Assembly (NCBI GenBank): GCA_900319655.1
Contig: ONPH01000024.1
Coordinates: forward strand, 7,097-17,890
Source of the DNA: an uncultured Eubacteriales bacterium
Lineage (GTDB): Bacteria > Bacillota > Clostridia > Oscillospirales > Acutalibacteraceae
Direction of reading: 5' to 3'
DNA: 10,794 bases
Part shown: positions 5 to 10,141 of the stretch, piece by piece
Layout of the letters: each line of letters starts with the position of its first letter
Numbering within the stretch: position 1 is the stretch's first letter
The notes under the pieces: model-generated
The model's input: only the letters and a program-made list of their open reading frames with translations
The model's database searches: none
Told to the model about the DNA's origin: nothing
Program-made: the position numbers and the translations under genes

Positions 5-520
5 ATGAAGCTGATACCGATGAGGTTTATGGGGTATGAGTGGCACCATAATCCGCGCGAGATTACCTTTGAATGTGAAAAGTCCGTAACCGAGCGCCTT
101 GTGCCTTACGATGTCTCGCAAATTCAGCAGACAGGACGGAAAAATATGGTGATTAAGGGCACGGGAGAGCTCTACGGAGAGGATTGTATGGAGCAGTTCG
201 AAAGGCTCTTTGAGCTTTTCAGGCGCGGCGGCGCAGGAGTGCTCGCGATTGAGAACACCGAGCCTGTTTTCGCCGTGTTTGAAAGCGTGAAAATCCTCGG
301 CGCTCCAAAGGAAAACGTGCTGACCTACGGCTTTGTTTTCAGGGAGGTTATGGAGGAAAAGGAGAGCGGAAAAAATACCTTCCACACCGCACGCGACGGC
401 GAAAATCTGTGGGATATATCCTACAAATATAACATCGTCATCGACGAGCTCGTGCGGCTGAATCCGCAGATTAAACGTCCCGACATTGTCGCAGAAGGCG
501 AGGTGATTCGCCTGTGCTGA
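5..520 (+). CDS. LysM-domain phage tail protein, XkdP-like
   Basis: Probable baseplate-hub-associated tail protein of a contractile phage tail. The C-terminal part (about residues 124-171) reads as a LysM domain: a short beta strand, then GENLWDISYKYN, then IDELVRLNPQI, ending EGEVIRL. The N-terminal 120 residues (pattern IKGTGELYGEDC, then FRRGGAGVL) look like the tail-assembly domain that accompanies LysM in XkdP-type proteins; this part is a weaker resemblance. LysM here is usually structural rather than cell-wall degrading. The gene is first in the window and in the PBSX-like order. ATG at 5 is chosen because it is the first in-frame start, but only four bases precede it, so a start outside the window cannot be excluded. 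The 3' end overlaps the next gene by 7 bases, implying translational coupling. Confidence 0.8.
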   Translation: MKLIPMRFMGYEWHHNPREITFECEKSVTERLVPYDVSQIQQTGRKNMVIKGTGELYGEDCMEQFERLFELFRRGGAGVLAIENTEPVFAVFESVKILGAPKENVLTYGFVFREVMEEKESGKNTFHTARDGENLWDISYKYNIVIDELVRLNPQIKRPDIVAEGEVIRLC

Positions 521-1452
521 GGTATGAAATTAAGCTCAAAAACGGCGAAGTGAGGGATGATTTCAAGGTTTTCTCCGCCGTGTGGAAAAGCGAGCTCGAC
601 GTTCCTGCCGACAGCCTCAGCCTTAACTGCGCCTACGACGGCGAGATTTTTAATCAGGGCGACAGGCTGTCCGCCTACGACGGCGATACGCTGATTTTTG
701 ACGGACAGCTCGACGAGCTCTCGCGAATTCACAGCGGCAGCGGAGTACTGCTCAGCCTTTGTGCAAGGAGCGCCGCGGCGGTTCTGCTCGACAACGAAGC
801 CGAGCCGCTCAGCTACCGCAATCCCACCGCCGTGCTGATGTACCGCAGGTATCTTCAGCCGTTCGGGCTTGACGACGTTGAGCTTGACGAAACGCCGATT
901 GTCGGATTTATGAGGATTGACAAGGGTATGACCTGCTACCAAGCGCTCGAGCTTTTCTGCAAGACGCGCTACGGCTCAAAGCTCAGGGTTTCGGGCGCAG
1001 GCAGGGTGTACCTCAGGGGGTATAGTAACGGCAAGACCGTTAAATTCGGCGCGGACGGCGTCAAATATTATTCTATAAAAGAAAATAAAAGCCGGTACAA
1101 GCTGATTTCAGAGGTTCGCCTAAAGGTCAAGACCACCGCCGGCTACCTTTCAAAAATGATTAACGCCAATCCCGAGTGCAGTCACATCAAGCGCGCGCGG
1201 TACGTCAACACCACCGCCGAGAACAACAGCCTTACAACCGCCGACAACATCATCCGCCGCAGTAACATTGAAGGGCACAAAATCACCCTGACCATCCGCG
1301 GCTGCGTGACGGATATCCTCGGCGCAAGGGCTGAGCTTGACGACGGCGTTTTCGGCAAAATCAGCGGACTTACCGTCAGCAAAATCACCTATTCGCTGAG
1401 CGATAGCGGCGAATACACAACGGTCGTCTTAGGCGACAGAGAGGAGAGTTAA
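514..1452 (+). CDS. Phage baseplate hub protein, XkdQ/gpD-like
   Basis: A 312-residue protein in the position and near the length of PBSX XkdQ, the hub protein that carries the central spike (T4 gp27/P2 gpD type fold). Visible features fit: an N-terminal beta-rich section beginning LRYEIKLKNGEV, a central section with FMRIDKGMTCYQALELFC typical of the hub family, and a C-terminal beta section ending YTTVVLGDREES. The start is GTG at 514, inside the end of the LysM gene, with a GGCGAGGTG-type ribosome site about 8 bases upstream; ATG at 524 is in another frame. No frameshift or internal stop is seen. The hub assignment rests on gene order plus pattern, so the exact family name is less certain than the tail role. 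Confidence 0.8.
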   Translation: MLRYEIKLKNGEVRDDFKVFSAVWKSELDVPADSLSLNCAYDGEIFNQGDRLSAYDGDTLIFDGQLDELSRIHSGSGVLLSLCARSAAAVLLDNEAEPLSYRNPTAVLMYRRYLQPFGLDDVELDETPIVGFMRIDKGMTCYQALELFCKTRYGSKLRVSGAGRVYLRGYSNGKTVKFGADGVKYYSIKENKSRYKLISEVRLKVKTTAGYLSKMINANPECSHIKRARYVNTTAENNSLTTADNIIRRSNIEGHKITLTIRGCVTDILGARAELDDGVFGKISGLTVSKITYSLSDSGEYTTVVLGDREES

Positions 1453-1454
1453 AT

Positions 1455-1778
1455 ATGTGGCTGTTAAGCTATATTACAAAAAATTCACTTGAAGCTCCCG
1501 AAGCGGCAAAGGGAAATGTGTACGATAACGGCACTTCCGTAGCCGCGTCGGGCGAGCACAGAAGCCTGCGCGCCTGCCTGCCCTACGGCGTAGCGAGCAT
1601 TCCGCCGAGAAACGAATGTGCGGTGGTGCTTCCGCTCGACGACGGCGAGGTGTCGCTCGGCGTTTTGGCGGATACCGAAGGTCTGCAGGAGGGCGAGGTA
1701 AAGCTAAGCTCCGCAGGCGGCGCGAGCATTGTGCTGAAAAACGACGGCAGAGTGCTGATAAACGGCAGGGAGGTCTGA
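1455..1778 (+). CDS. Baseplate spike protein, Mu gp45/gpV-like (short)
   Basis: A 107-residue protein that looks like a small central spike or baseplate assembly V protein. The middle (LPYGVASIPPRNECAVVLPL, then GVLADTE) resembles the OB-fold part of Mu gp45-type proteins. The C-terminus (GEVKLSSAGG, ASIVLKNDGRVLINGREV) has the alternating beta pattern of a spike needle. It sits where PBSX has xkdR (DUF2577), but the sequence looks more like gp45 than DUF2577. It is shorter than typical gpV proteins and lacks an obvious metal-binding HxH tip. GAGGAGAG lies just upstream of ATG 1455, two bases after the preceding stop. Confidence 0.65.
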   Translation: MWLLSYITKNSLEAPEAAKGNVYDNGTSVAASGEHRSLRACLPYGVASIPPRNECAVVLPLDDGEVSLGVLADTEGLQEGEVKLSSAGGASIVLKNDGRVLINGREV

Positions 1779-1779
1779 G

Positions 1780-2118
1780 ATGACGGACGTTAAAATCGAA
1801 AATCACGACGTTGCCCTCGACAGCGCAGGGCGAATGGTCTATCTCGACGGCGCGGACGCGCTGTTTCAAAGGGCGGTAATCAGCGCCTCGGTCGGCAGGG
1901 GAAGCTTTATTTACGACCGTACTCTCGGCTGTGACTACACCTTTAACCCCGATGACGAATTTGCAAACCGCAAGGTCGCGCTCGGCATTAACGAGGCGTT
2001 CGCGAGGTTTTACAAAACCTCAGCCGAGGTGCAGGACATCGGGCAGGGCGTTACCCTCAAAATCACGGTGAATTCCGAAAGCAGAACACAGGAGGTGCGT
2101 TTAATTGGAGACGTATGA
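1780..2118 (+). CDS. Baseplate wedge protein, gp25/XkdS-like (DUF2634)
   Basis: A 112-residue protein matching the small gp25/XkdS wedge family, which connects the hub to the wedge and touches the sheath at the baseplate. Visible features are an N-terminal strand pair (DVKIENHDVALDSAGRMVYL), then DALFQRAVISASVGRGSFIYDRTLGCDY, a helix with NRKVALGINEAF, and a C-terminal beta segment ending EVRLIGD. The YDRTLGC segment and the following helices are typical of the family. GGGAGGT directly upstream of ATG 1780 is a good ribosome site. The end overlaps the baseplate J gene by 14 bases. The protein has no lysozyme active site; 'lysozyme-like' in some database names for this family is misleading. 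Confidence 0.8.
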   Translation: MTDVKIENHDVALDSAGRMVYLDGADALFQRAVISASVGRGSFIYDRTLGCDYTFNPDDEFANRKVALGINEAFARFYKTSAEVQDIGQGVTLKITVNSESRTQEVRLIGDV

Positions 2119-3160
2119 TGAAATTTACAGAAGAATGAGCGAAAAATACACCGCGGAAAGCGGCTTTGAAATTGACCCGTCGAGCGATATCGCAATCCGC
2201 CTCAGGGTGCTCGCAGGCGAGATTTACAACGCCGGATGCAGTCTTGACTGGCTAAAGCGGCAGATGTTCGCAGACACCGCGACAGGCGAAAACCTCGACA
2301 AGCTCGCCGCGCAGCGCGGAATTGTCCGCAAGCCTGCAAAAAAGGCTGAGGGCGAGCTGATTTTCAGCGTGAACGAGCCGCTCGATTACCCCATAGAAAT
2401 TCCCGAGGGAACCGTTGCCGCGACCTACGGCGAAACGCCGGTCAGGGTGTACACCGCTCAGTCGGCGGTGCTTCCGCAGGCTACTTATTCGGTCAGGGTT
2501 GCGGCAAAGGCGGAGCTCCCCGGCTACAACGGCAACATCGCCTCGGGCACTGCCGAGGTTCCCGTCAACGTGCCGGCAGGTATCGACGCCGTGACTAACA
2601 CGACGTTTATCGGCGGAGACAACGAGGAGAGCGACGAAACCCTGAGGTCGAGGGTTATAGGCTCCTACCTCAACCGCCCCAACCCTGCAAACGCGGCGTT
2701 TTACAAACAGCTTGCCGAAAGCGTTGACGGTATCGACAAGGCAGGCACGCTTGAAAGGTTCAGCGGCGCCGGCACGGTCGGAGTGTTCGTCGCGAGAAAG
2801 GACTGGGACGTAACCGACGAGGCTCTTGCCGAGGTCACGGAGCTTATCGATAAAAACAAACCCCTCGGCGCAGTCGCTTCGGTTCAAAGGGCGAGCCACC
2901 TCGACGTCGATTTGGAAATCAGGGTAAAGGCGAAGGAAGGCTACGAGGAGAGCGAGGTAAAGCGCATGGTGACCGACGCATTTACCGACTACATCGGCAC
3001 AATCCCCGTGGGCGGTTCAATGCTCTTGTCTACCCTCGGCAACTATATCTACTCAACGGGCTGTGTCAGGTACTACATTTTTGACCAGAGTATGCAGAAC
3101 GAAGGCGCGAGCGGTTCGCAGTTCTTCCGCCCGGGCGACATTTCGATTACGGTGATATAA
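2105..3160 (+). CDS. Baseplate J-like protein (XkdT/gpJ)
   Basis: A 351-residue Baseplate_J protein, the wedge component that forms the ring around the hub in contractile tails. The pattern is strong: GSSLDWLKRQMF-like helices near residues 45-60, an ENLDKLAAQRGI segment, beta-rich middle domains (EIPEGTVAATYGETPVRVYTAQ, then PGYNGNIASGTAEVPV), then NEESDETLRSRVIGSYLN and a FVARKD / IDKNKPLGAVASV segment, all characteristic of gpJ. Length is usual for the family. The start is TTG at 2105 with GGAGG ten bases upstream (2091-2095); an internal ATG at 2135 (MSEKYTAES) is the alternative but has a weaker ribosome site. The gene overlaps the wedge gene before it and ends one base before the next. 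Confidence 0.9.
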   Translation: METYDEIYRRMSEKYTAESGFEIDPSSDIAIRLRVLAGEIYNAGCSLDWLKRQMFADTATGENLDKLAAQRGIVRKPAKKAEGELIFSVNEPLDYPIEIPEGTVAATYGETPVRVYTAQSAVLPQATYSVRVAAKAELPGYNGNIASGTAEVPVNVPAGIDAVTNTTFIGGDNEESDETLRSRVIGSYLNRPNPANAAFYKQLAESVDGIDKAGTLERFSGAGTVGVFVARKDWDVTDEALAEVTELIDKNKPLGAVASVQRASHLDVDLEIRVKAKEGYEESEVKRMVTDAFTDYIGTIPVGGSMLLSTLGNYIYSTGCVRYYIFDQSMQNEGASGSQFFRPGDISITVI

Positions 3161-3161
3161 T

Positions 3162-3638
3162 ATGGACAGCTTAACTTCTATGAAACAAAAGCTTATGCCC
3201 CTCGGACTTTACGACCTCGAAGGTCAGTCTGAGGTGCTCTGCGAGTTAAAGGCTTACGCCGAGGGGCTCGATTTGCTCTTTGAGTATATCGACGAGCTGT
3301 TTCGCGAAAATTACATTGCCACCGCCGAGAGCTACGGACTGAGCAGGCGTGAGGAGATTATCAGCAGGGAACACCCTGAGCAGACGGCTTCACAGCGCAG
3401 AGAGGCGCTGATTTACTTTGAAAAAACCGTCAAAACCACCCTCAACGACGATGACTTTGCCGAGTTTTTGGAGAACATCGGCGTAACCGATTACACATTG
3501 GATGTCCGCCTCAGGCAGGGCGAGTTCAACATCACCATTGCCGACGAAAAAACCGACGGCGAAAAGGCGCTTTTGGAACAGCGTATCCGAGCCGAAATAC
3601 CGGCGCATATGACCTGCAAATTTCACTATCCCGAATAA
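3162..3638 (+). CDS. Phage tail protein, XkdU/DUF2313-like (gpI-type)
   Basis: A 158-residue protein in the XkdU position, directly after baseplate J. It has the family's helical N-terminus (about residues 1-75: KQKLMPLGLYDLEG, CELKAYAEGLDLLFEYIDELF), then YGLSRREEII followed by RREALIYFEK, and a C-terminal ferredoxin-like section (YTLDVRLRQGEFNITIAD) ending ARMT-like PAHMTCKFHYPE. In known phages this protein links the baseplate wedge to tail fibres. No strong ribosome site precedes ATG 3162, so it is probably translated by coupling from the preceding stop at 3158-3160. It is the last tail gene; XkdV-type fibre genes do not follow. Confidence 0.85.
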   Translation: MDSLTSMKQKLMPLGLYDLEGQSEVLCELKAYAEGLDLLFEYIDELFRENYIATAESYGLSRREEIISREHPEQTASQRREALIYFEKTVKTTLNDDDFAEFLENIGVTDYTLDVRLRQGEFNITIADEKTDGEKALLEQRIRAEIPAHMTCKFHYPE

Positions 3639-3893: not shown

Positions 3894-5321
3894 ATGAAAG
3901 CAAGAGTAAGTAAAAGATGTATGTTTTTAATATCGGTTTTGGTTGTGCTTTCGATGGTCGCGTCCTTTGCGGGCTGCGGACAATCACAGAGCAGTACGGC
4001 AACGGCTGATTCGGCGGATTCTTCTGCTGTTGAAACCACCGTACAATCCGAAACCGCCGCGCAAAAATCCGCAAAGCTAAGCGAGAGCGATATCGAAATT
4101 AAAAACACTATTGAAAATACCGCCGACGGCGAGCACGCAATCACCGTTGACGGCAAGACCGAGAGCTACTCAAACACTCTCGTAAATAAAACCGGTGAAG
4201 CCGACGGCGACGAGGCGGACTTCTACGGCGAAAACTCCGCGGTATTCGCGACAAACGGCGGAACGCTCGATTTGTCGAATATGGTAGTCAAGACGAACGG
4301 TACCCACGCAAACGCGGTGTTCACCTACGGCGAGGGCACGACCGTCAACATCTCGGACAGCTATATCGAAACGAGCGGAAACTGCTCGGGCGGACTGATG
4401 ACCACCGGCGGAGGAACCACAAACGCAAGTAACCTTACAATTACCACATCGGGCAACTCCTCGGCGGCTATCCGCTCCGACCGCGGCGGCGGAACGATGA
4501 ACGTCACAGGCGGAAGCTACACCACCGGCGGCGTAGGTTCTCCCGTAATCTACTCGACCGCGGACGTCACCGTAAACGACGCGGAGCTTGTTTCAAATAC
4601 CTCGCAGGGCGTTGTTGTCGAGGGTAAAAACTCAGTTACGCTCAACAATTCCAACCTCACCGCCGACAACAACAAAAAGAACGGCAGCCATTCCGACTAC
4701 TACCAGGCGGTTATGATTTACCAGTCGATGTCGGGCGACGCCGCAACGGGACTGTCAAGCTTCACGATGAACGGCGGTACGCTCACGAACAAAAACGGCG
4801 ATATTTTCTTCATCACCAACACAGCGACCGAAATCAACCTAAAGGGCGCTCAGATTACGAATAACGACTCAAACGGCGTGTTCCTCAGAGCCGCCGCGAC
4901 AGGCTGGGGCAAGGACGGCTCAAACGGCGGTCAGGTTACATTAAACGCCGACGGTCAGACCATTAACGGCGATATGATTGTCGACAGCGTGTCAAACCTC
5001 AACCTTTATCTTAAGGGAAATTCCTCTTACACCGGCGCGATTAATTCAAGCGGTCAGCAGGGCGGAGTATATGTTGAAATAGAGAGCGGCTCTACCTGGA
5101 CGCTCACCGGGGATTCCTACATCACCTCGCTGACCTGCGCCGAAGGAGCGGTAAACCTCAACGGCCACAGCCTTTACGTAAACGGCGTTAAGTACACAGG
5201 CTCGGCTTCAACCGGACAGGCGATTGAGACCACCGTGGCTTCATCATCAAGCGGCAGTGGTAACGGCGCTCCCGACGGAAAGCCCGAAGGCAATCCCCCG
5301 GCGAAACCCGGAGAGAATTGA
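3894..5321 (+). CDS. Predicted surface lipoprotein with beta-helix repeats
   Basis: A 475-residue exported protein of unknown function. Residues 1-28 are a signal sequence (basic start, hydrophobic 11-26) ending in FAGC, a lipobox-like site with Cys28 as probable lipidation site; Phe at -3 is slightly unusual. A Ser/Thr/Ala-rich linker follows (about 30-70). Residues about 105-435 are a run of short beta-strand repeats rich in Asn, Gly, Thr and Ser (TLDLSNMVV, TTVNISDSYIETSG, TMNVTGGSYTTGG, SVTLNNSNLTADN), the signature of a right-handed parallel beta helix. The C-terminus is a Gly/Pro-rich tail. No catalytic motif is recognised; binding of a glycan or adhesion is a guess. ATG 3894 follows AGGAGG at 3880-3885. 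The stop lies within repeat element A, so the tail may have been altered by insertion. Codirectional with the tail genes but with its own ribosome site and a 255-base gap. Confidence 0.8.
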   Translation: MKARVSKRCMFLISVLVVLSMVASFAGCGQSQSSTATADSADSSAVETTVQSETAAQKSAKLSESDIEIKNTIENTADGEHAITVDGKTESYSNTLVNKTGEADGDEADFYGENSAVFATNGGTLDLSNMVVKTNGTHANAVFTYGEGTTVNISDSYIETSGNCSGGLMTTGGGTTNASNLTITTSGNSSAAIRSDRGGGTMNVTGGSYTTGGVGSPVIYSTADVTVNDAELVSNTSQGVVVEGKNSVTLNNSNLTADNNKKNGSHSDYYQAVMIYQSMSGDAATGLSSFTMNGGTLTNKNGDIFFITNTATEINLKGAQITNNDSNGVFLRAAATGWGKDGSNGGQVTLNADGQTINGDMIVDSVSNLNLYLKGNSSYTGAINSSGQQGGVYVEIESGSTWTLTGDSYITSLTCAEGAVNLNGHSLYVNGVKYTGSASTGQAIETTVASSSSGSGNGAPDGKPEGNPPAKPGEN

Positions 5322-5426: not shown

Positions 5427-5452
5427 GTAGGGGCGGACTGAAATGTCCGCCC
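5427..5452. repeat. GGGCGGAC hairpin repeat, single copy
   Basis: GTAG followed by an 8-bp perfect stem (GGGCGGAC 5431-5438, GTCCGCCC 5445-5452) and a 6-base loop. The same unit, differing in the loop, occurs twice in inverted orientation in element B (10200-10225 and 10336-10361). Three copies in the window mark it as a dispersed repeat unit. Confidence 0.75.
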
Positions 5453-5454
5453 GA

Positions 5455-5501
5455 AAATCCTCCCCCGATACTTTGTTTTCGGGGGAGGATTTAAATTTTT
5501 T
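5455..5501. terminator. Strong hairpin, probable bidirectional terminator
   Basis: A 14-bp perfect stem (AAATCCTCCCCCGA at 5455-5468 pairing with TCGGGGGAGGATTT at 5479-5492) with a 10-base loop, followed by AAA and a T6 run (5496-5501). It lies about 130 bases downstream of the lipoprotein stop and would end that transcript. It is part of element A, so it may have arrived with the repeat. The three A bases between stem and T run make it less than ideal on the plus strand. Confidence 0.55.
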
Positions 5502-5595
5502 AAATCGGAGCGAAGCGACCCTTAATTTTCAATTATCCATTATCAACTATCAATTAAAATCTATATGCAATATATACAAAATAATCATAAAATAT

Positions 5596-5623
5596 TTGGT
5601 AACAAAATATGTTGCAATAATAA
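5596..5623 (+). promoter_or_regulatory. Weak candidate promoter for the X25-dockerin gene
   Basis: TTGGTA (5596-5601) and TAATAA (5618-5623) are separated by 16 bases in an AT-rich stretch. If used, transcription would begin near 5630, leaving ATG 5623 outside the message and favouring the GTG at 5654. Both boxes are imperfect and the region is AT-rich, so a chance match is possible. Confidence 0.25.
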
Positions 5624-7218
5624 TGAAAAAATTTATAAAAAGGAGGTTCTTTTGTGAGAAAGACAAAAAATTCATTAGTTTACTGCTCGCGGTAATGCTT
5701 GTTTTCTCCTGCTTTACAGGCGTTGCGGCGTTTACGGCGAGCGCGGAAGATGAAGTAGAGGACGTCTACAGCGTATTTGGCTCATCCGCTGAGGTTTTCG
5801 GCGGCGTTTGGTTTAAGGAAAATCCCTTGACCGAGATGACCTTAGACGAATCCGACGGACTTTACAAAATTACATTTAAGGACGTTGAACCCACCAAGAT
5901 GCTTCAGCTCAAGGTTCTCAAAAACCACGATGAAGACTTCTCTTGGGGCGCTCCCGGTACAGACCAGAACTACACGATTAATGTCGACCAGAAATGCGAC
6001 GTTACAGTTACCTTCGATCCCGTTAAGGAGCTCGTAAACGTAGTCGGAGATTACGTAACCGTTCCCCAGGGACTTCAGGTTGACCACGTTATCGCTGCCG
6101 GCAACGGCGAGGACACCTACCTCAACGGCGCAGGCTGGGATCCCTGCGATCCTGCAAACGCCATGACCGGGGTTGAGCCCAGAGTCTGGGAAATCACAAT
6201 GGAGGACATTTACGCCTTCGATAACTACCAGATTAAATTTGCCGCTAACTCGATTGACGAGGACGGCAACCCCGTTTCCAACCCGTGGGGTATCAACTGG
6301 GGTACCGAGGAAGAGGCTCTTTATCCCGTAGGCGAGTGGATAGACGCTTCCTATAACGGCAAAAACTGCATTTTCGAAGTTGAGGACGACGAGTCTATTG
6401 TAAGAGTTGTGCTCGACCTCAGAAACTTTGACTATACAACAAAGCAGGGCGCTGTATTTACAATCACAGTTACTCCGCCTGCTCCTGTTCACGAGCACAC
6501 CCCGGGCGAGGCGGTTCAGGAGAACTTCCACGACGCCGACTGCACACACCCCGGCTCATATGACAGCGTTGTTTACTGCACAACCTGTAACGCGGAAGTA
6601 AGCCGCGAGACCGTTACAATCAAGGCAAAGGGACACACCGAGGTTATTGATAATGCCGTAGCCGCAAGCTGCACGCAATCGGGACTTACCCAGGGCAGCC
6701 ACTGCTCGGTATGTAACGAGGTTATCGTTGCACAGCAGGTTATCCCGGCAAAGGGTCACACCGCTGTTATCGACCCTGCCGTTCCGGCAACCTGCACAGA
6801 GACGGGACTTACACAGGGCAGCCACTGCTCGGTATGTAACGAGGTAATCGTTGCTCAGCAGGTTGTTAAGGCTCTCGGACATCTGGAGAGAATGGTTCCC
6901 GGATATGCTGCAACCTACACTTCCGCAGGTCTCACAGACGGTATATTCTGCGACCGCTGCAACGAGTGGGTAGTTCCTCAGGTTATTATCCCGAAGCTCA
7001 AGCCTGCTCACCTCATCGGCGACGTTAACCGCGACGGCAATGTTAACGTTCTCGACGCGGTGCTTGTTCAGAAGTACGCTGCCTCCAGGGCAACTCTTGA
7101 CGACGAGCAGCTCTACATCGGCGATGTAAACGATGACGGCGAAGTAAATGTTCTTGACGCTGTTCAAATTCAGAAGTTCGCCGGAGAGAGAATTTCCGAG
7201 TTCAAGAAAAAAGCGTAA
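5623..7218 (+). CDS. Exported dockerin protein with X25-like modules
   Basis: Probable non-catalytic surface or secreted component of a dockerin-cohesin complex. Numbered from ATG 5623 (531 residues): signal peptide to about residue 41 (hydrophobic core 18-36, cleavage ASA|E); two X25-like beta modules (about 48-143 and 154-285; pattern DGLYKITF, LQLKVLKN, FSWG, DVTVTFDP), a family known from pullulanases and starch-adherence proteins of Ruminococcus bromii; four Cys-rich repeats (about 290-462) each with CxxC; and a type I dockerin with calcium loops DVNRDGNVNVLD (from 467) and DVNDDGEVNVLD (from 501). Starch or maltodextrin binding is inferred from the X25 modules. ATG 5623 has no ribosome site; the good SD and GTG 5654 are one base out of frame, so this gene may carry a frameshift, slip, or contain a sequencing error. 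The frame is open back to 5443, but that part runs through a repeat and is not credible coding. A terminator follows. Confidence 0.8.
   Translation: MKKFIKRRFFCEKDKKFISLLLAVMLVFSCFTGVAAFTASAEDEVEDVYSVFGSSAEVFGGVWFKENPLTEMTLDESDGLYKITFKDVEPTKMLQLKVLKNHDEDFSWGAPGTDQNYTINVDQKCDVTVTFDPVKELVNVVGDYVTVPQGLQVDHVIAAGNGEDTYLNGAGWDPCDPANAMTGVEPRVWEITMEDIYAFDNYQIKFAANSIDEDGNPVSNPWGINWGTEEEALYPVGEWIDASYNGKNCIFEVEDDESIVRVVLDLRNFDYTTKQGAVFTITVTPPAPVHEHTPGEAVQENFHDADCTHPGSYDSVVYCTTCNAEVSRETVTIKAKGHTEVIDNAVAASCTQSGLTQGSHCSVCNEVIVAQQVIPAKGHTAVIDPAVPATCTETGLTQGSHCSVCNEVIVAQQVVKALGHLERMVPGYAATYTSAGLTDGIFCDRCNEWVVPQVIIPKLKPAHLIGDVNRDGNVNVLDAVLVQKYAASRATLDDEQLYIGDVNDDGEVNVLDAVQIQKFAGERISEFKKKA
5640..5656 (+). promoter_or_regulatory. 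Ribosome binding site with GTG start, out of frame
   Basis: AAGGAGG (5640-5646) lies 7 bases before GTG at 5654-5656, an ideal arrangement much like that of the next gene (GAGGGG then GTG 7346). Reading from this GTG gives VRKTKNSLVYCSR and then a stop at 5693-5695. One extra A in the A6 tract at 5665-5670 would instead give VRKTKKFISLLLAVML, a textbook signal peptide continuous with the downstream protein. This decides that the start of the following gene is uncertain. Confidence 0.7.
6681..6863 (+). repeat. Tandem 123-bp duplication in the Cys-rich region
   Basis: Bases 6681-6741 recur at 6804-6864 with three mismatches in 61, a period of 123 bases or 41 codons. At protein level the units read SGLTQGSHCSVCNEVIVAQQV and TGLTQGSHCSVC and so on. 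Near-identical DNA suggests recent duplication or gene conversion. The outer two Cys-rich repeats (C-T-T-C and C-D-R-C) are more diverged, and the last has Tyr in place of the first Cys. Confidence 0.8.
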
Positions 7219-7252: not shown

Positions 7253-7283
7253 AAACGGTCGGCTTTTTTGCCGGCCGTTTTTG
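7253..7283 (+). terminator. Intrinsic terminator of the X25-dockerin gene
   Basis: An 11-bp stem with one G:U pair (AAACGGTCGGC 7253-7263, GCCGGCCGTTT 7270-7280), loop of six T, then further T at 7281-7282. It lies 35 bases after the stop at 7218 and just before the promoter of the next gene, so the two dockerin genes are separate transcription units. Confidence 0.85.
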
Positions 7284-7286
7284 TGG

Positions 7287-7315
7287 TTGAATTTAATGAT
7301 TATTTGTGGTAAAAT
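7287..7315 (+). promoter_or_regulatory. Sigma-70 type promoter of the adaptor gene
   Basis: TTGAAT (7287-7292) and TAAAAT (7310-7315) with a 17-base spacer, with a TG pair just upstream of the -10 box (TGTGGTAAAAT). It begins immediately after the terminator and 31 bases before the GTG start at 7346, with GAGGGG at 7335-7340 as ribosome site. Position and spacing together make it credible, though it is a pattern match only. Confidence 0.55.
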
Positions 7316-7345
7316 GTGTATATATTATAAAATCGAGGGGATTTT

Positions 7346-10141
7346 GTGAAAAAGAGATTATTTAAGGCTTTAGGAATTATCATCTGCGCCGCCGTGCTTC
7401 TTTCGGCAGTGCCGTTCGCGGCTTCCGCGCGGACAACCGATATTTACGTCAGCACCGATGAAATCAACGAATACGGCGCGGCTTCGGCAATTCAGGACGC
7501 GCTTTCTACCGCCGCACAGCAGGGAAGCGAGTCGAACATCATCCGCGTCACCGTTGAGCCGGGCGAATACACGCTCGACTACACCCTGTTTATCTACGGC
7601 AACACTTGGCTTAAGCTTAACGGCGTAACGCTTTCGCGCGGAGCTTGGTGCGAAAATATGCTCAGAACCGGCGACAATGACAGCACGGACTTCGGTGTTA
7701 CGGGCTATTACTACAAGAACATCACCATTGAGGGCGGCACGTTCGACGGCAAGCTCGACATTCAGAACACCATGCTCAAAATCGTCCACGCCAAAAACTT
7801 CGTGATGAAGAACGTCACCGTTAAAAACAACAAAAACGCCCATATGATGGAGGTTGCGGCGGTTGACGGCTTTACCGCGGAGGGCTGCGGTTTTTATAAT
7901 CAGGTTATGACCTCGAGCAACGGCAGCTACGAGGCTATCCAGCTTGACGTGCTAAAATACGGCAACATAAGCGGCTGCCGCTCCGAGGACTTGTGTATGA
8001 AGAACGTCCTTGTTGAAAACTGCGTTTTCGACAATGTTCCGCGCGGAGTGGGCTCTCACACCGCCGTTCACAACAATCCGCACGACACCCTGATTATCAG
8101 GAACAACACCTTTAAAAACATCGGCAGCGTTGCGGTTCAGACCCTCGGCTGGACTAACTGCTCGATTACAAACAACACCATCGACAGCGCTCCCAGGGCA
8201 ATTGCGGTTTACTCAATCGTAAACGAGGGCTACGGTACAATTTTGCCGAGTGTGTTCGCCGCGGAGGGCAACACCGAGCAGCATTTCAGCGACGAATATA
8301 AGGCGGTAAAGTCCAATATTTTGGTCGCGAACAATCTGATTACCAACAGCGGAATAATCGACGACAAATACGCTTCCTACGAAAAAGCCGCAATCACCGT
8401 TATGGGCTCAAAGGTTGTAAGCTCCGCGACCTATTCGGGCGGCAGCGGCGGACTCCCTGTCGGCGAGTACCCCTGCGACACCGTTACGGTCAAAAATAAC
8501 CTAATCTATTCCAAGAGCGGCAGCGGTATCCGCGTTGAACATTCAAAGAACATCAGCGTTGACTCCAACGTTATGTTCCTCACCCAGACCACAGCTCCGC
8601 CGAACTACTACGGAGTTGTGTTCAGGGACGGCGTTAACCCGGCGAATATCACAAAAAATTACATTCAAAACGCTGCGGTAAACGGAATTCAAATCGACTC
8701 CTGCCTAGTGAATTACATCACAGGCAACGAGATTATCGGCACAGGCAAGTACGGAATTGGCACTTACGCCTCAACCCTTGGCTTGATTTCAAACAACGAC
8801 GTCCGCAACACCAAGACCGAGGGCATCAGTATTCTGAATTCCTCAAAGGTAAACACAGGTATTTCCGCGAACAGAGTGTCGGGCACAGGCTCGGGAATTC
8901 ACATCGAATCGAAGTCCTCGGTTAAGCTGATTGAAAAGAACCTGACCTACAACTGCAAGTCGAATATCGACTACGCGTCGAGCATGCACCTCGTAACCGT
9001 CGGCACAAACTACACCGCCAACGCCGCGCTCACTACCTTTGCGGTCGACTCAAAGTCGGTTAACCTCAGCGTGGGCGAGTGCTGGCGAATCGGCAAGACC
9101 GTAACCCCCGTAAACGCGATTACAACCTTTAGCTACGCAAATTCAAATCCTTCCGCCGCGATTGTCGACAGCACAGGACGTATCACCGCGAAAGCCCCGG
9201 GTACGACGAATATCACCGTCAAAAGCGCTAACGGCAAGGCGCTGATTATCACGGTCAAGGTCGCGGCAAAACCGGCTGCGCTTGCAGGCGACGTTGACGG
9301 CGACGGCATAATTACCTCAGCTGACAGTGCTGTGCTCGGCAACTACACCTCGGGTATTTACAGCGATAAGATTACCGCCGCGAATTCCGACGTGACAGGC
9401 GACGGAAAAATCACCGCCCTCGACAGAATTGTACTCACGAGGTACGTTGACAGAATGAGCGGCTACACAGCCCTTCCGCACGGCGCGGCAGGTACAGCGG
9501 CAAACGGTGCGGATATTTCGGTCGATACCGCCAAGACGGATGAATTCGGTGAGGTCGAAATCGGAATTAACCTGACTAAAAACCCGGGCATAGCCACCGC
9601 TGACTTTGATGTTGAATATAACTCAAATGTTCTCGAATTGACCGAAGTGGTTGACAATGAACTTTTAAGCGGCGCGGTCGCGGCACATTCGGACAAAATG
9701 CAATCTCCGTACCGCCTGTCGTGGCAAAACGACGTCGCGAACAGCAATTATTCAGCCACGGGTAAGCTCGTTACGCTGAGGTTTAAGGTAAAAGAAAACG
9801 CCGAACCCGGCGTGTACAATATAACCGTCAACCCGAATACGGCAGAGGTTTACAATAGCGGTTTGTACTTTGTACCGTGCACCTTCACAAACGGCGCGGT
9901 CGAGGTTAAGGACAGCACCGTACCGAAAACCGGTGACGTAGACCGAAACGGCATAGTTGACGCCGACGACGCACTCCTGCTCCAAAAGCACATCGCAAGG
10001 TTCACCGACGGCGACAGCCCTCTCCTTGACGAGAGCGACGAGGAGACAATGACCATAGCCGACGTAAACCGCGACGGCAGCCTGACGGTAGGCGACGTTA
10101 CAATGATTCAGCAGTATATCGCGGAAATCATTGAGATATAG
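7346..10141 (+). CDS. Beta-helix protein with dockerin-cohesin-dockerin, candidate adaptor scaffoldin
   Basis: A 931-residue exported protein. Residues 1-28 are a signal peptide (cleavage ASA|R). About 30-550 form a right-handed parallel beta helix with pectate-lyase-like Asn/Val/Ile repeats (KNITIEGGTFDG, NNLIYSKSGSGIRVEHSKNISVDSN); no catalytic residues can be assigned, so lyase or glycosidase activity is unproven. About 565-645 is a Big_2-like Ig domain (STGRITAKAPGTTNITVKS). Dockerin 1 has loops DVDGDGIITSAD (649) and DVTGDGKITALD (682). About 722-858 reads as a cohesin: an early strand VEIGINLTKNPGIATADFDVEYN, then LELTEVV and LVTLRFKVKENAEPGVYNITVN. Dockerin 2 has loops DVDRNGIVDADD (864; Asn868 in place of Asp) and DVNRDGSLTVGD (906). 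Such a protein could dock to a scaffold and also carry another dockerin protein, perhaps the neighbour. GTG 7346 is chosen for GAGGGG five bases upstream. The stop is directly followed by repeat element B. Confidence 0.85.
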   Translation: MKKRLFKALGIIICAAVLLSAVPFAASARTTDIYVSTDEINEYGAASAIQDALSTAAQQGSESNIIRVTVEPGEYTLDYTLFIYGNTWLKLNGVTLSRGAWCENMLRTGDNDSTDFGVTGYYYKNITIEGGTFDGKLDIQNTMLKIVHAKNFVMKNVTVKNNKNAHMMEVAAVDGFTAEGCGFYNQVMTSSNGSYEAIQLDVLKYGNISGCRSEDLCMKNVLVENCVFDNVPRGVGSHTAVHNNPHDTLIIRNNTFKNIGSVAVQTLGWTNCSITNNTIDSAPRAIAVYSIVNEGYGTILPSVFAAEGNTEQHFSDEYKAVKSNILVANNLITNSGIIDDKYASYEKAAITVMGSKVVSSATYSGGSGGLPVGEYPCDTVTVKNNLIYSKSGSGIRVEHSKNISVDSNVMFLTQTTAPPNYYGVVFRDGVNPANITKNYIQNAAVNGIQIDSCLVNYITGNEIIGTGKYGIGTYASTLGLISNNDVRNTKTEGISILNSSKVNTGISANRVSGTGSGIHIESKSSVKLIEKNLTYNCKSNIDYASSMHLVTVGTNYTANAALTTFAVDSKSVNLSVGECWRIGKTVTPVNAITTFSYANSNPSAAIVDSTGRITAKAPGTTNITVKSANGKALIITVKVAAKPAALAGDVDGDGIITSADSAVLGNYTSGIYSDKITAANSDVTGDGKITALDRIVLTRYVDRMSGYTALPHGAAGTAANGADISVDTAKTDEFGEVEIGINLTKNPGIATADFDVEYNSNVLELTEVVDNELLSGAVAAHSDKMQSPYRLSWQNDVANSNYSATGKLVTLRFKVKENAEPGVYNITVNPNTAEVYNSGLYFVPCTFTNGAVEVKDSTVPKTGDVDRNGIVDADDALLLQKHIARFTDGDSPLLDESDEETMTIADVNRDGSLTVGDVTMIQQYIAEIIEI

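Follow-up and report, generated by a model that had tools for sequence, protein, structure and literature searches.

Cohesin–dockerin pairs are usually read as Lego bricks between proteins, and a dockerin is built of two repeats that often form two equivalent binding faces. Here we describe a gene that places one cohesin (Coh) between two dockerins (Doc1 and Doc2) behind a beta-helix passenger, encoded at positions 7346 to 10141 of a 10,794-nt stretch (the window) of contig ONPH01000024.1, from an uncultured Eubacteriales bacterium of the Acutalibacteraceae. Proteins with both modules are already known, as are double dockerins. Amy4 (Sca1) of Ruminococcus bromii likewise combines a passenger, a dockerin and a cohesin in one chain within an amylosome, and its self-aggregation through its own cohesin–dockerin pair has been proposed (PMC5814915), but its passenger is an amylase rather than a beta helix, it has one dockerin rather than two of different classes, and the excerpts of its description that we consulted give no fixed Doc1–Coh block. 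Monovalent adaptor scaffoldins, namely ScaC of R. flavefaciens and 28 proteins of P. guangzhouensis, many with a glycoside hydrolase (GH), also join a single cohesin to a dockerin with type switching (PMC11557425, in excerpt), whereas the present protein has a second dockerin of another class before the cohesin, resembling what would be the cohesin's own partner class.

Two dockerins and cohesin modules occur together on one polypeptide in ScaK of Acetivibrio cellulolyticus (PMC3413522, PMC4217186, both in excerpt), which, unlike our protein, is an SLH-anchored scaffoldin with two cohesins and without a beta-helix passenger. Double-dockerin proteins of Clostridium thermocellum, one of them with a serine protease (PMC12484212, in excerpt), share the two dockerins per chain, but in tandem with no cohesin between; PDB chain 8x39, named serine protease, matched our protein at 3.1e-5 with its best stretch in Doc1, and we take it to be this serine-protease double dockerin. 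In the excerpted open-licence PMC literature, we found no description of a beta-helix–dockerin–cohesin–dockerin protein, nor, beyond the suggested self-aggregation of Amy4, of a docking pair used as an internal clasp or homopolymer joint. By this literature search, the novelty lies in the beta helix as passenger, in a conserved block where dockerins of two classes flank a single cohesin, and in the evidence linking Doc1 with Coh. Our best explanation, to which we give an even chance, is that a two-protein docking pair has been fused into one chain, in which Doc2 would be the scaffold plug and Doc1 and Coh would pair in cis or head to tail.

The original prediction read the order signal peptide, beta helix, Big_2-like domain, dockerin, cohesin-like domain and dockerin from the sequence, and Pfam matches together with the same order in genus relatives bore it out:

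7346..10141, forward strand: whole gene, 931 amino acids (aa)
7346..7429, forward strand: signal peptide, residues about 1-28, read from sequence and model (basic start, hydrophobic core, ASA; helix 2-21 in the AlphaFold2 (AF2) model)
7433..9019, forward strand: right-handed parallel beta helix, residues about 30-558
9032..9253, forward strand: Big_2 Ig-like domain, residues 563-636 (Pfam, 33.1 bits, cut-off 22.8)
9284..9448, forward strand: Doc1, the first dockerin, residues 647-701 (Pfam; class without IQ)
9479..9508, forward strand: Doc1–Coh linker, residues 712-721, drifting in sequence and fixed in length
9518..9907, forward strand: Coh, type I cohesin fold, residues 725-854 (Pfam, VIA, alignment)
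9932..10120, forward strand: Doc2, the second dockerin, residues about 863-925 (Pfam; DATxIQ-like class)

The domain set is thus confirmed as a real observation. The earlier cohesin-like call for residues 722-858 was upheld by a match to the cohesin profile PF00963 at 56.9 bits (cut-off 24.1) and by a cohesin beta-sandwich fold, and the same profile and fold rejected an X module at this place. Asp753 aligned with the Asp of 3kcp and 4ums, a column that we read as the dockerin-contact Asp39 of CipA-type cohesins (PMC5772552, in excerpt); this contact Asp was present in 14 of the 17 family rows, P0014 included, and in 8 of the 9 rows of A5 (both counted by eye). Because the contact Asp is present, the cohesin looks binding-competent. 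The dockerin type I profile PF00404 matched two stretches, with 72.3 bits for the whole protein (cut-off 22.9) and 48.2 and 40.8 bits for the separate matches, so that the chain has the one cohesin plus dockerin of a monovalent adaptor scaffoldin, here with two dockerins. These differ in recognition class, as originally predicted: Doc2 resembled the other dockerins of its genome, being 56% identical to that of the C10 papain-like protein and 50% to that of the neighbouring gene, and Doc1 resembled none, with 24-39% identity to 21 of them and without the [ILVM]Q helix motif found in 20 of the 21 (the comparison covered 21 of 25 other dockerin matches and excluded two pieces on contig C116, one on C14 and a half dockerin on C211).

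The tail of Big_2, Doc1, Coh and Doc2 occurred in 10 of 150 genus genomes, our own included, and in 9 of these 10 it followed the helix in this order, the helix start of G275 lying in another frame; separate protein records at 97%, 83% and 67% identity had the same order. The G248 tail carried one additional dockerin-like match. Comparison with the 83% relative gave dN/dS values of 0.11 for the helix, 0.19 for Doc1, 0.22 for Coh, 0.08 for Doc2 and 0.56 for residues 705-722, indicating purifying selection across all domains. Among 103 homologues, 14 had beta helix, dockerin and cohesin together in precomputed Pfam lists; others kept the helix and Big_2 and differed at the end, which was one DATxIQ-like dockerin or a run of Big_2 or fn3 repeats, and P0008, 70% identical over 69% of the query with an fn3 tail, points to tail swapping. 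Swapping of the passenger, suggested by P0014 (papain/PepC-like N-terminus) and a copy in G191, was rejected, both being read as chimaeras that assembly created at a shared GKTVTP motif, and P0014 was excluded from later profiles. The probable chimaera of G191 (contig C5, L135:1963-4371) has a GltX-like N-terminus, named by eye, on a Big_2-Doc-Coh-Doc tail.

Doc1 and Coh each stood apart in the genomes that carry them. Scanning all 10 orthologue genomes with a Doc1 model gave 86-110 bits for Doc1 and 43-56 bits for the next dockerin, and a Coh model gave 132-210 bits for the fused cohesin and, in 8 of the 10, no second match or one below 25 bits; second-best scores in the remaining two were 86 (G235) and 99 (G243). 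G224, which is in neither model, gave 97.5 versus 49.2 bits for Doc1 and 132 versus 17 for Coh. With no close class mate of Doc1 in 10 of 10 genomes or of Coh in 8 of 10, self-pairing is favoured over branching to other proteins. Across the 150 genus genomes, all 16 Doc1-model matches of at least 80 bits had a cohesin in their company: 10 were fused to it, three (G184, G167 and G249) lay in a Coh-Doc protein directly 5′ of a cohesin gene, and three lay in one gene cluster of G192. The next 31 matches (76 to 58 bits) had no cohesin match in the stretches of the 30 loci examined. Around the best-scoring matches, the analysis covered larger stretches in place of the loci L147-L176. From this co-occurrence in fused proteins and in the cluster, gene-fusion logic predicts Doc1 and Coh to be partners.

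The unfused arrangement was clearest in G192, where one stretch of contig C116 (L134, L184; 21000-41419) encodes a cohesin with a transmembrane segment (Coh-TM), a Coh-Doc2 protein and three leucine-rich repeat (LRR, BspA-type) proteins of 1.5-2.0 thousand aa, each with a C-terminal Doc1-class dockerin, the first being open at the end of the stretch. Doc1 was 46-50% identical to the dockerins of two of these LRR proteins over their length. In a tree of 33 cohesins, which took only matches over 40 bits, the cohesin of the G192 Coh-Doc2 protein was the only non-fused one grouping with the fused (support 85/96, below the starring threshold), and the Coh model, which includes it as a row, gave it 182 bits. 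We also noted that this cluster looks like a docked adhesin-like system, with no catalytic domain in Pfam at E <= 0.001. Elsewhere in the genus, eight loci had a Coh-Doc protein and then a gene whose product has a cohesin close to the N-terminus; the dockerin of the Coh-Doc protein was Doc1-like (DR..LTR) in the G184, G167 and G249 loci and MKDIVLLQQY-like in those of G190, G205, G154, G186 and G167, G190 having an extra dockerin gene between, and as seven of the eight loci were picked by a cohesin match, their number is no estimate of frequency. Recurrent units of this kind (L137, L138, L139, L140 and L142) consist of a protein with a Coh-Doc end (MKDIVLLQQYLNGW-like) and then an N-terminal-cohesin gene, whose product has a DATxIQ-like dockerin or something else at its C-terminus.

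Fused Doc1 differed from its unfused relatives in its two repeats. The loop pattern allowed parsing of 25 of the 26 fused and 33 of the 35 unfused rows that scored above 40 bits with the Doc1 model; the other rows deviated from it. Helix position 18 of the fused rows held R or K in 0/25 for repeat 1 and in 21/25 for repeat 2, and position 13 held R in 0/25 and 25/25, respectively (in our protein the repeat-2 residues at positions 13 and 18 are R694 and R699); the 19 rows that are non-redundant at 90%, read by hand, gave 0/19 versus 17/19 at position 18 and 0/19 versus 19/19 at position 13. By contrast, unfused dockerins of the wider class had R at position 18 in both repeats in all 33 parsed rows, and the four closest had R or K at position 13 in both repeats. 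By this sequence test Doc1 was not a dual-binding-mode dockerin, as all 25 fused rows lacked R and K from both position 13 and position 18 of repeat 1, and comparison of the repeats led us to reject dual-mode symmetry; Doc1 has kept one binding face and lost the other. A dockerin fixed in one orientation would show such a one-face loss, which fits a clasp without proving one.

Spacing set Doc2 apart from the rest of the tail. In all 19 non-redundant rows the gap from Doc1 to Coh was 8-10 residues, whereas that from Coh to Doc2 ranged from 0 to 228. Because both gaps beside Doc1 are fixed and the Coh-to-Doc2 gap is variable, we read Big_2-Doc1-Coh as the fixed unit and Doc2 as a mobile plug. 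The AF2 model had a pTM of 0.75, with residues 700-719 at a pLDDT of 86-89.

Taking these observations together, we propose that a beta-helix passenger, secreted and acting on or holding glycan, would sit on a Big_2-Doc1-Coh block of fixed length, while Doc2 would dock into a scaffoldin belonging to an amylosome-like system. Doc1 and Coh would be a matched pair, which in a relative is split between a passenger that carries a Doc1-class dockerin at its end and a small adaptor made of Coh and Doc2, and the fused form may derive from such an unfused one. Through its retained face Doc1 would most likely bind the cohesin within the same chain, forming an internal clasp, or the one on a sister copy, forming a head-to-tail chain, so that only Doc2 would remain to plug into the cohesin of another protein. 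We hold the more specific form of this proposal, a naturally fused private pair with Doc1 locked in one orientation on its own-chain or next-copy cohesin, its second face lost, serving as a clasp inside the chain or a joint in a homopolymer, and with Doc2 alone facing outward, tentatively and at somewhat less than an even chance. The termini of a cohesin lie away from its dockerin-binding face, a point that we considered when weighing cis against trans binding and did not rely on.

Several observations weigh against pairing of Doc1 with Coh in one chain. A type I cohesin can accept dockerins from different sequence groups, so sequence class is no proof of specificity. The score gaps in the orthologue genomes are inflated, as models A4 and A5 include sequences from several of the scored genomes, and these genomes are drafts, 75-94% complete, and may lack partners. 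Cohesin matches first led us to the unfused loci of G184, G167 and G192, only that of G249 being reached otherwise, and at 56 bits and below Coh-Doc proteins reappear among the Doc1-model matches (G243:C17, G190:C7, G205:C13 and G186:C3). P0015, P0019 and P0021 have no contact Asp, yet keep Doc1. The contrast in binding faces draws 29 of its 33 unfused rows from the more distant GWxxY class in six genomes and only four from the closest class, and the G238 and G288 orthologues have G rather than R at position 18 of repeat 2. The gap from Big_2 to Doc1 is equally fixed, at 3-4 residues, and with this control in hand we rejected fixed Doc1–Coh spacing as sole proof of a clasp; the pTM of the model, which exceeds our estimate for three independently placed domains, fits a fixed Doc1–Coh placement and speaks to it indirectly. 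Moreover, R. flavefaciens and C. perfringens have single-mode dockerins with partners in trans (PMC5429695, in excerpt).

A branching adaptor, in which Doc1 and Doc2 would plug into two scaffoldin cohesins while the internal cohesin captures the dockerin of another protein, making the chain a passenger plus monovalent adaptor, is possible, and we regard it as doubtful. Such a role would have precedents in the one-dockerin, one-cohesin adaptor scaffoldins, some with a glycoside hydrolase (PMC11557425), and in R. bromii Amy4, which has both modules and participates in amylosomes (PMC5814915). The retained contact Asp, the different classes of the two dockerins, the Coh-Doc dyads of many genus relatives and the four other cohesin candidates of the same genome, two of them above the cut-off, agree with it, against which stand the missing second Doc1-class dockerin in 10 of 10 orthologue genomes, the missing second cohesin above 25 bits in 8 of 10 and a Doc1 that has lost one face in every one of the 25 fused rows parsed.

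The original prediction proposed this adaptor together with a candidate partner, the adjacent dockerin gene; its domain order, cohesin and two dockerin classes stand, and the neighbour as partner is not supported. The gene upstream and the sites between the two genes are as follows:

5443..7218, forward strand: neighbour, a Sas20-like starch-binding protein with X25-type modules and a C-terminal IQK-class dockerin (7rpy, Dockerin_1)
7253..7280, forward strand: terminator-like hairpin between neighbour and gene, an 11-pair stem then a T run (consensus match only)
7287..7315, forward strand: promoter-like TTGAAT-17-TAAAAT with TG ahead of the second hexamer, 9/12 (consensus match only)
7335..7340, forward strand: GAGGGG, likely ribosome-binding site ahead of GTG 7346 (from sequence)

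Residues 116-348 of the neighbour matched the R. bromii Sca5 structure 7rpy at 2.2e-38, and its dockerin (Dockerin_1, 41.5 bits) belongs to the common IQK class and is 29% identical to Doc1. Terminator-like sites numbered 13 in the scanned stretch against 7.4 expected from shuffles, and promoter-like sites 10 against 5.2 expected. The starch-binding part of the neighbour had no match in any of nine orthologue loci, whose 5′ flanks reached 0.6-1.7 kb in seven and almost nothing in two. On these grounds of class, intergenic sites and synteny, we rejected the neighbour as favoured partner. In R. bromii the cohesin of Sca5 itself binds the Sas20 dockerin (PMC9112005, in excerpt). An AGGAGG at 5641-5646 lies ahead of an out-of-frame GTG (5654) close to a poly-A run and leaves the annotated start of the neighbour uncertain.

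Doc1 might instead be a calcium-stabilised spacer in a stiff Big_2-Doc1-Coh stalk, with a role like that of the X module beside some dockerins, leaving the cohesin alone to take a partner. The short, fixed gaps flanking Doc1 (3-4 and 8-10 residues, 19/19), its one degenerate face and the well-ordered Doc1–Coh stretch of the model would suit such a stalk, which nevertheless seems improbable, because a mere spacer needs neither a retained face nor purifying selection, whereas R18 of that face is conserved in 21 of 25 rows, matching the unfused rows, R13 is conserved in all 25, matching the four closest of these, and Doc1 has a dN/dS of 0.19. An assembly artefact of the metagenome bin as the source of the multi-domain tail, for which the draft state (226 contigs) and the chimaera-like joints at GKTVTP in P0014 and G191:C5 might speak, is most implausible against the full order in 9 of 10 tail-bearing genus genomes and in separate records, and purifying selection in all domains.

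The passenger itself resembled beta helices of several functions. Its only Pfam matches were NosD/Beta_helix, an NCBIfam search gave no match at E <= 0.01, and a PDB sequence search gave no convincing relative (best E 0.18). A fold search returned adhesins, lyases, epimerases and phage tailspikes at similar Z; the adhesin PfbA, the lyase RbmB and the AlgE C5-epimerases, all right-handed beta helices, were 15-23% identical to the query helix in alignments. Since fold matches of different functions scored similar Z, we dropped the naming of an enzyme class. The passenger is probably glycan-active or glycan-binding. Two beta-helix paralogues in the same genome (L119:2826-5453 on contig C45 and L120:329-2779 on C102) were 41% and 29% identical; one has a Big_2-like repeat tail and the other neither dockerin nor cohesin by eye.

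The source genome, that of a gut bacterium, is a draft bin of 1.6 Mb in 226 contigs, 80.7% complete, with 27 Dockerin_1 matches at E <= 0.001 and five cohesin matches at E <= 1, three of which exceed the cut-off; cohesin matches at E <= 0.001 occurred in 104 of 150 genomes of the family and are thus common there. Among the 17 dockerin proteins scanned, which are part of the set of this genome (G000), three had GH13 and four CBM26, and others had GH53, CotH, GDSL lipase, CHAP, papain-like, metallophosphatase and Cthe_2159 domains. Like an R. bromii amylosome, the gene content includes dockerin-bearing GH13/CBM26 proteins and an X25-bearing cohesin scaffoldin. The latter, a Sca5-like protein on contig C97 (L118:1-1611, reverse strand), has an X25-type module matching 7rpy at 5.5e-33 and a weak cohesin match (15.4 bits, under the cut-off), its open reading frame (ORF) being truncated by the contig end. 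A lipoprotein-like protein on C108 (L116:1334-2221) with a C-terminal cohesin of 29.4 bits, above the cut-off, is a candidate anchor, as is the product of L117:3-605 on C225, where a weak cohesin-like fragment (17.4 bits, below the cut-off; no Pfam match in a separate domain scan) precedes a hydrophobic stretch and lysines. A protein on C211 (L115:416-1777) has a cohesin of 24.2 bits (20.6 in a second scan) and then an apparent half dockerin, one repeat, at its C-terminus. The set resembles the R. bromii amylosome as described in the excerpts consulted (PMC5814915, PMC9112005), and the matches of the neighbour and the C97 protein to the Sca5 X25 structure 7rpy place the system among amylosomes, although our protein itself has no X25 module. 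A public relative of 83% identity is record CAMNHG010000121.1, an uncultured Clostridia bin.

Elsewhere in the window, positions 5-3638 (forward strand) hold six phage tail/baseplate-like genes by PHROGs (LysM/hub-like, hub, phrog_25991 of unknown function, wedge, phrog_6 wedge and tail protein), which end just 5′ of the surface-protein genes and which we read as a prophage or tailocin edge. A 475-aa lipoprotein-like ORF follows at 3894-5321 (forward strand), with a Cys after a hydrophobic start and Ser/Asn/Gly-rich repeats and with no Pfam match above the cut-off. Rfam at gathering thresholds gave no match within the window.

If the fusion reading is true, pair members split between proteins in relatives, set against a fused pair that has lost one face, would be a natural experiment on the reason for dual binding modes, and protein engineering would gain a pair that already binds in a single orientation. 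Treating each cohesin as a docking site can then overstate branching when amylosomes and cellulosomes are modelled from genomes.

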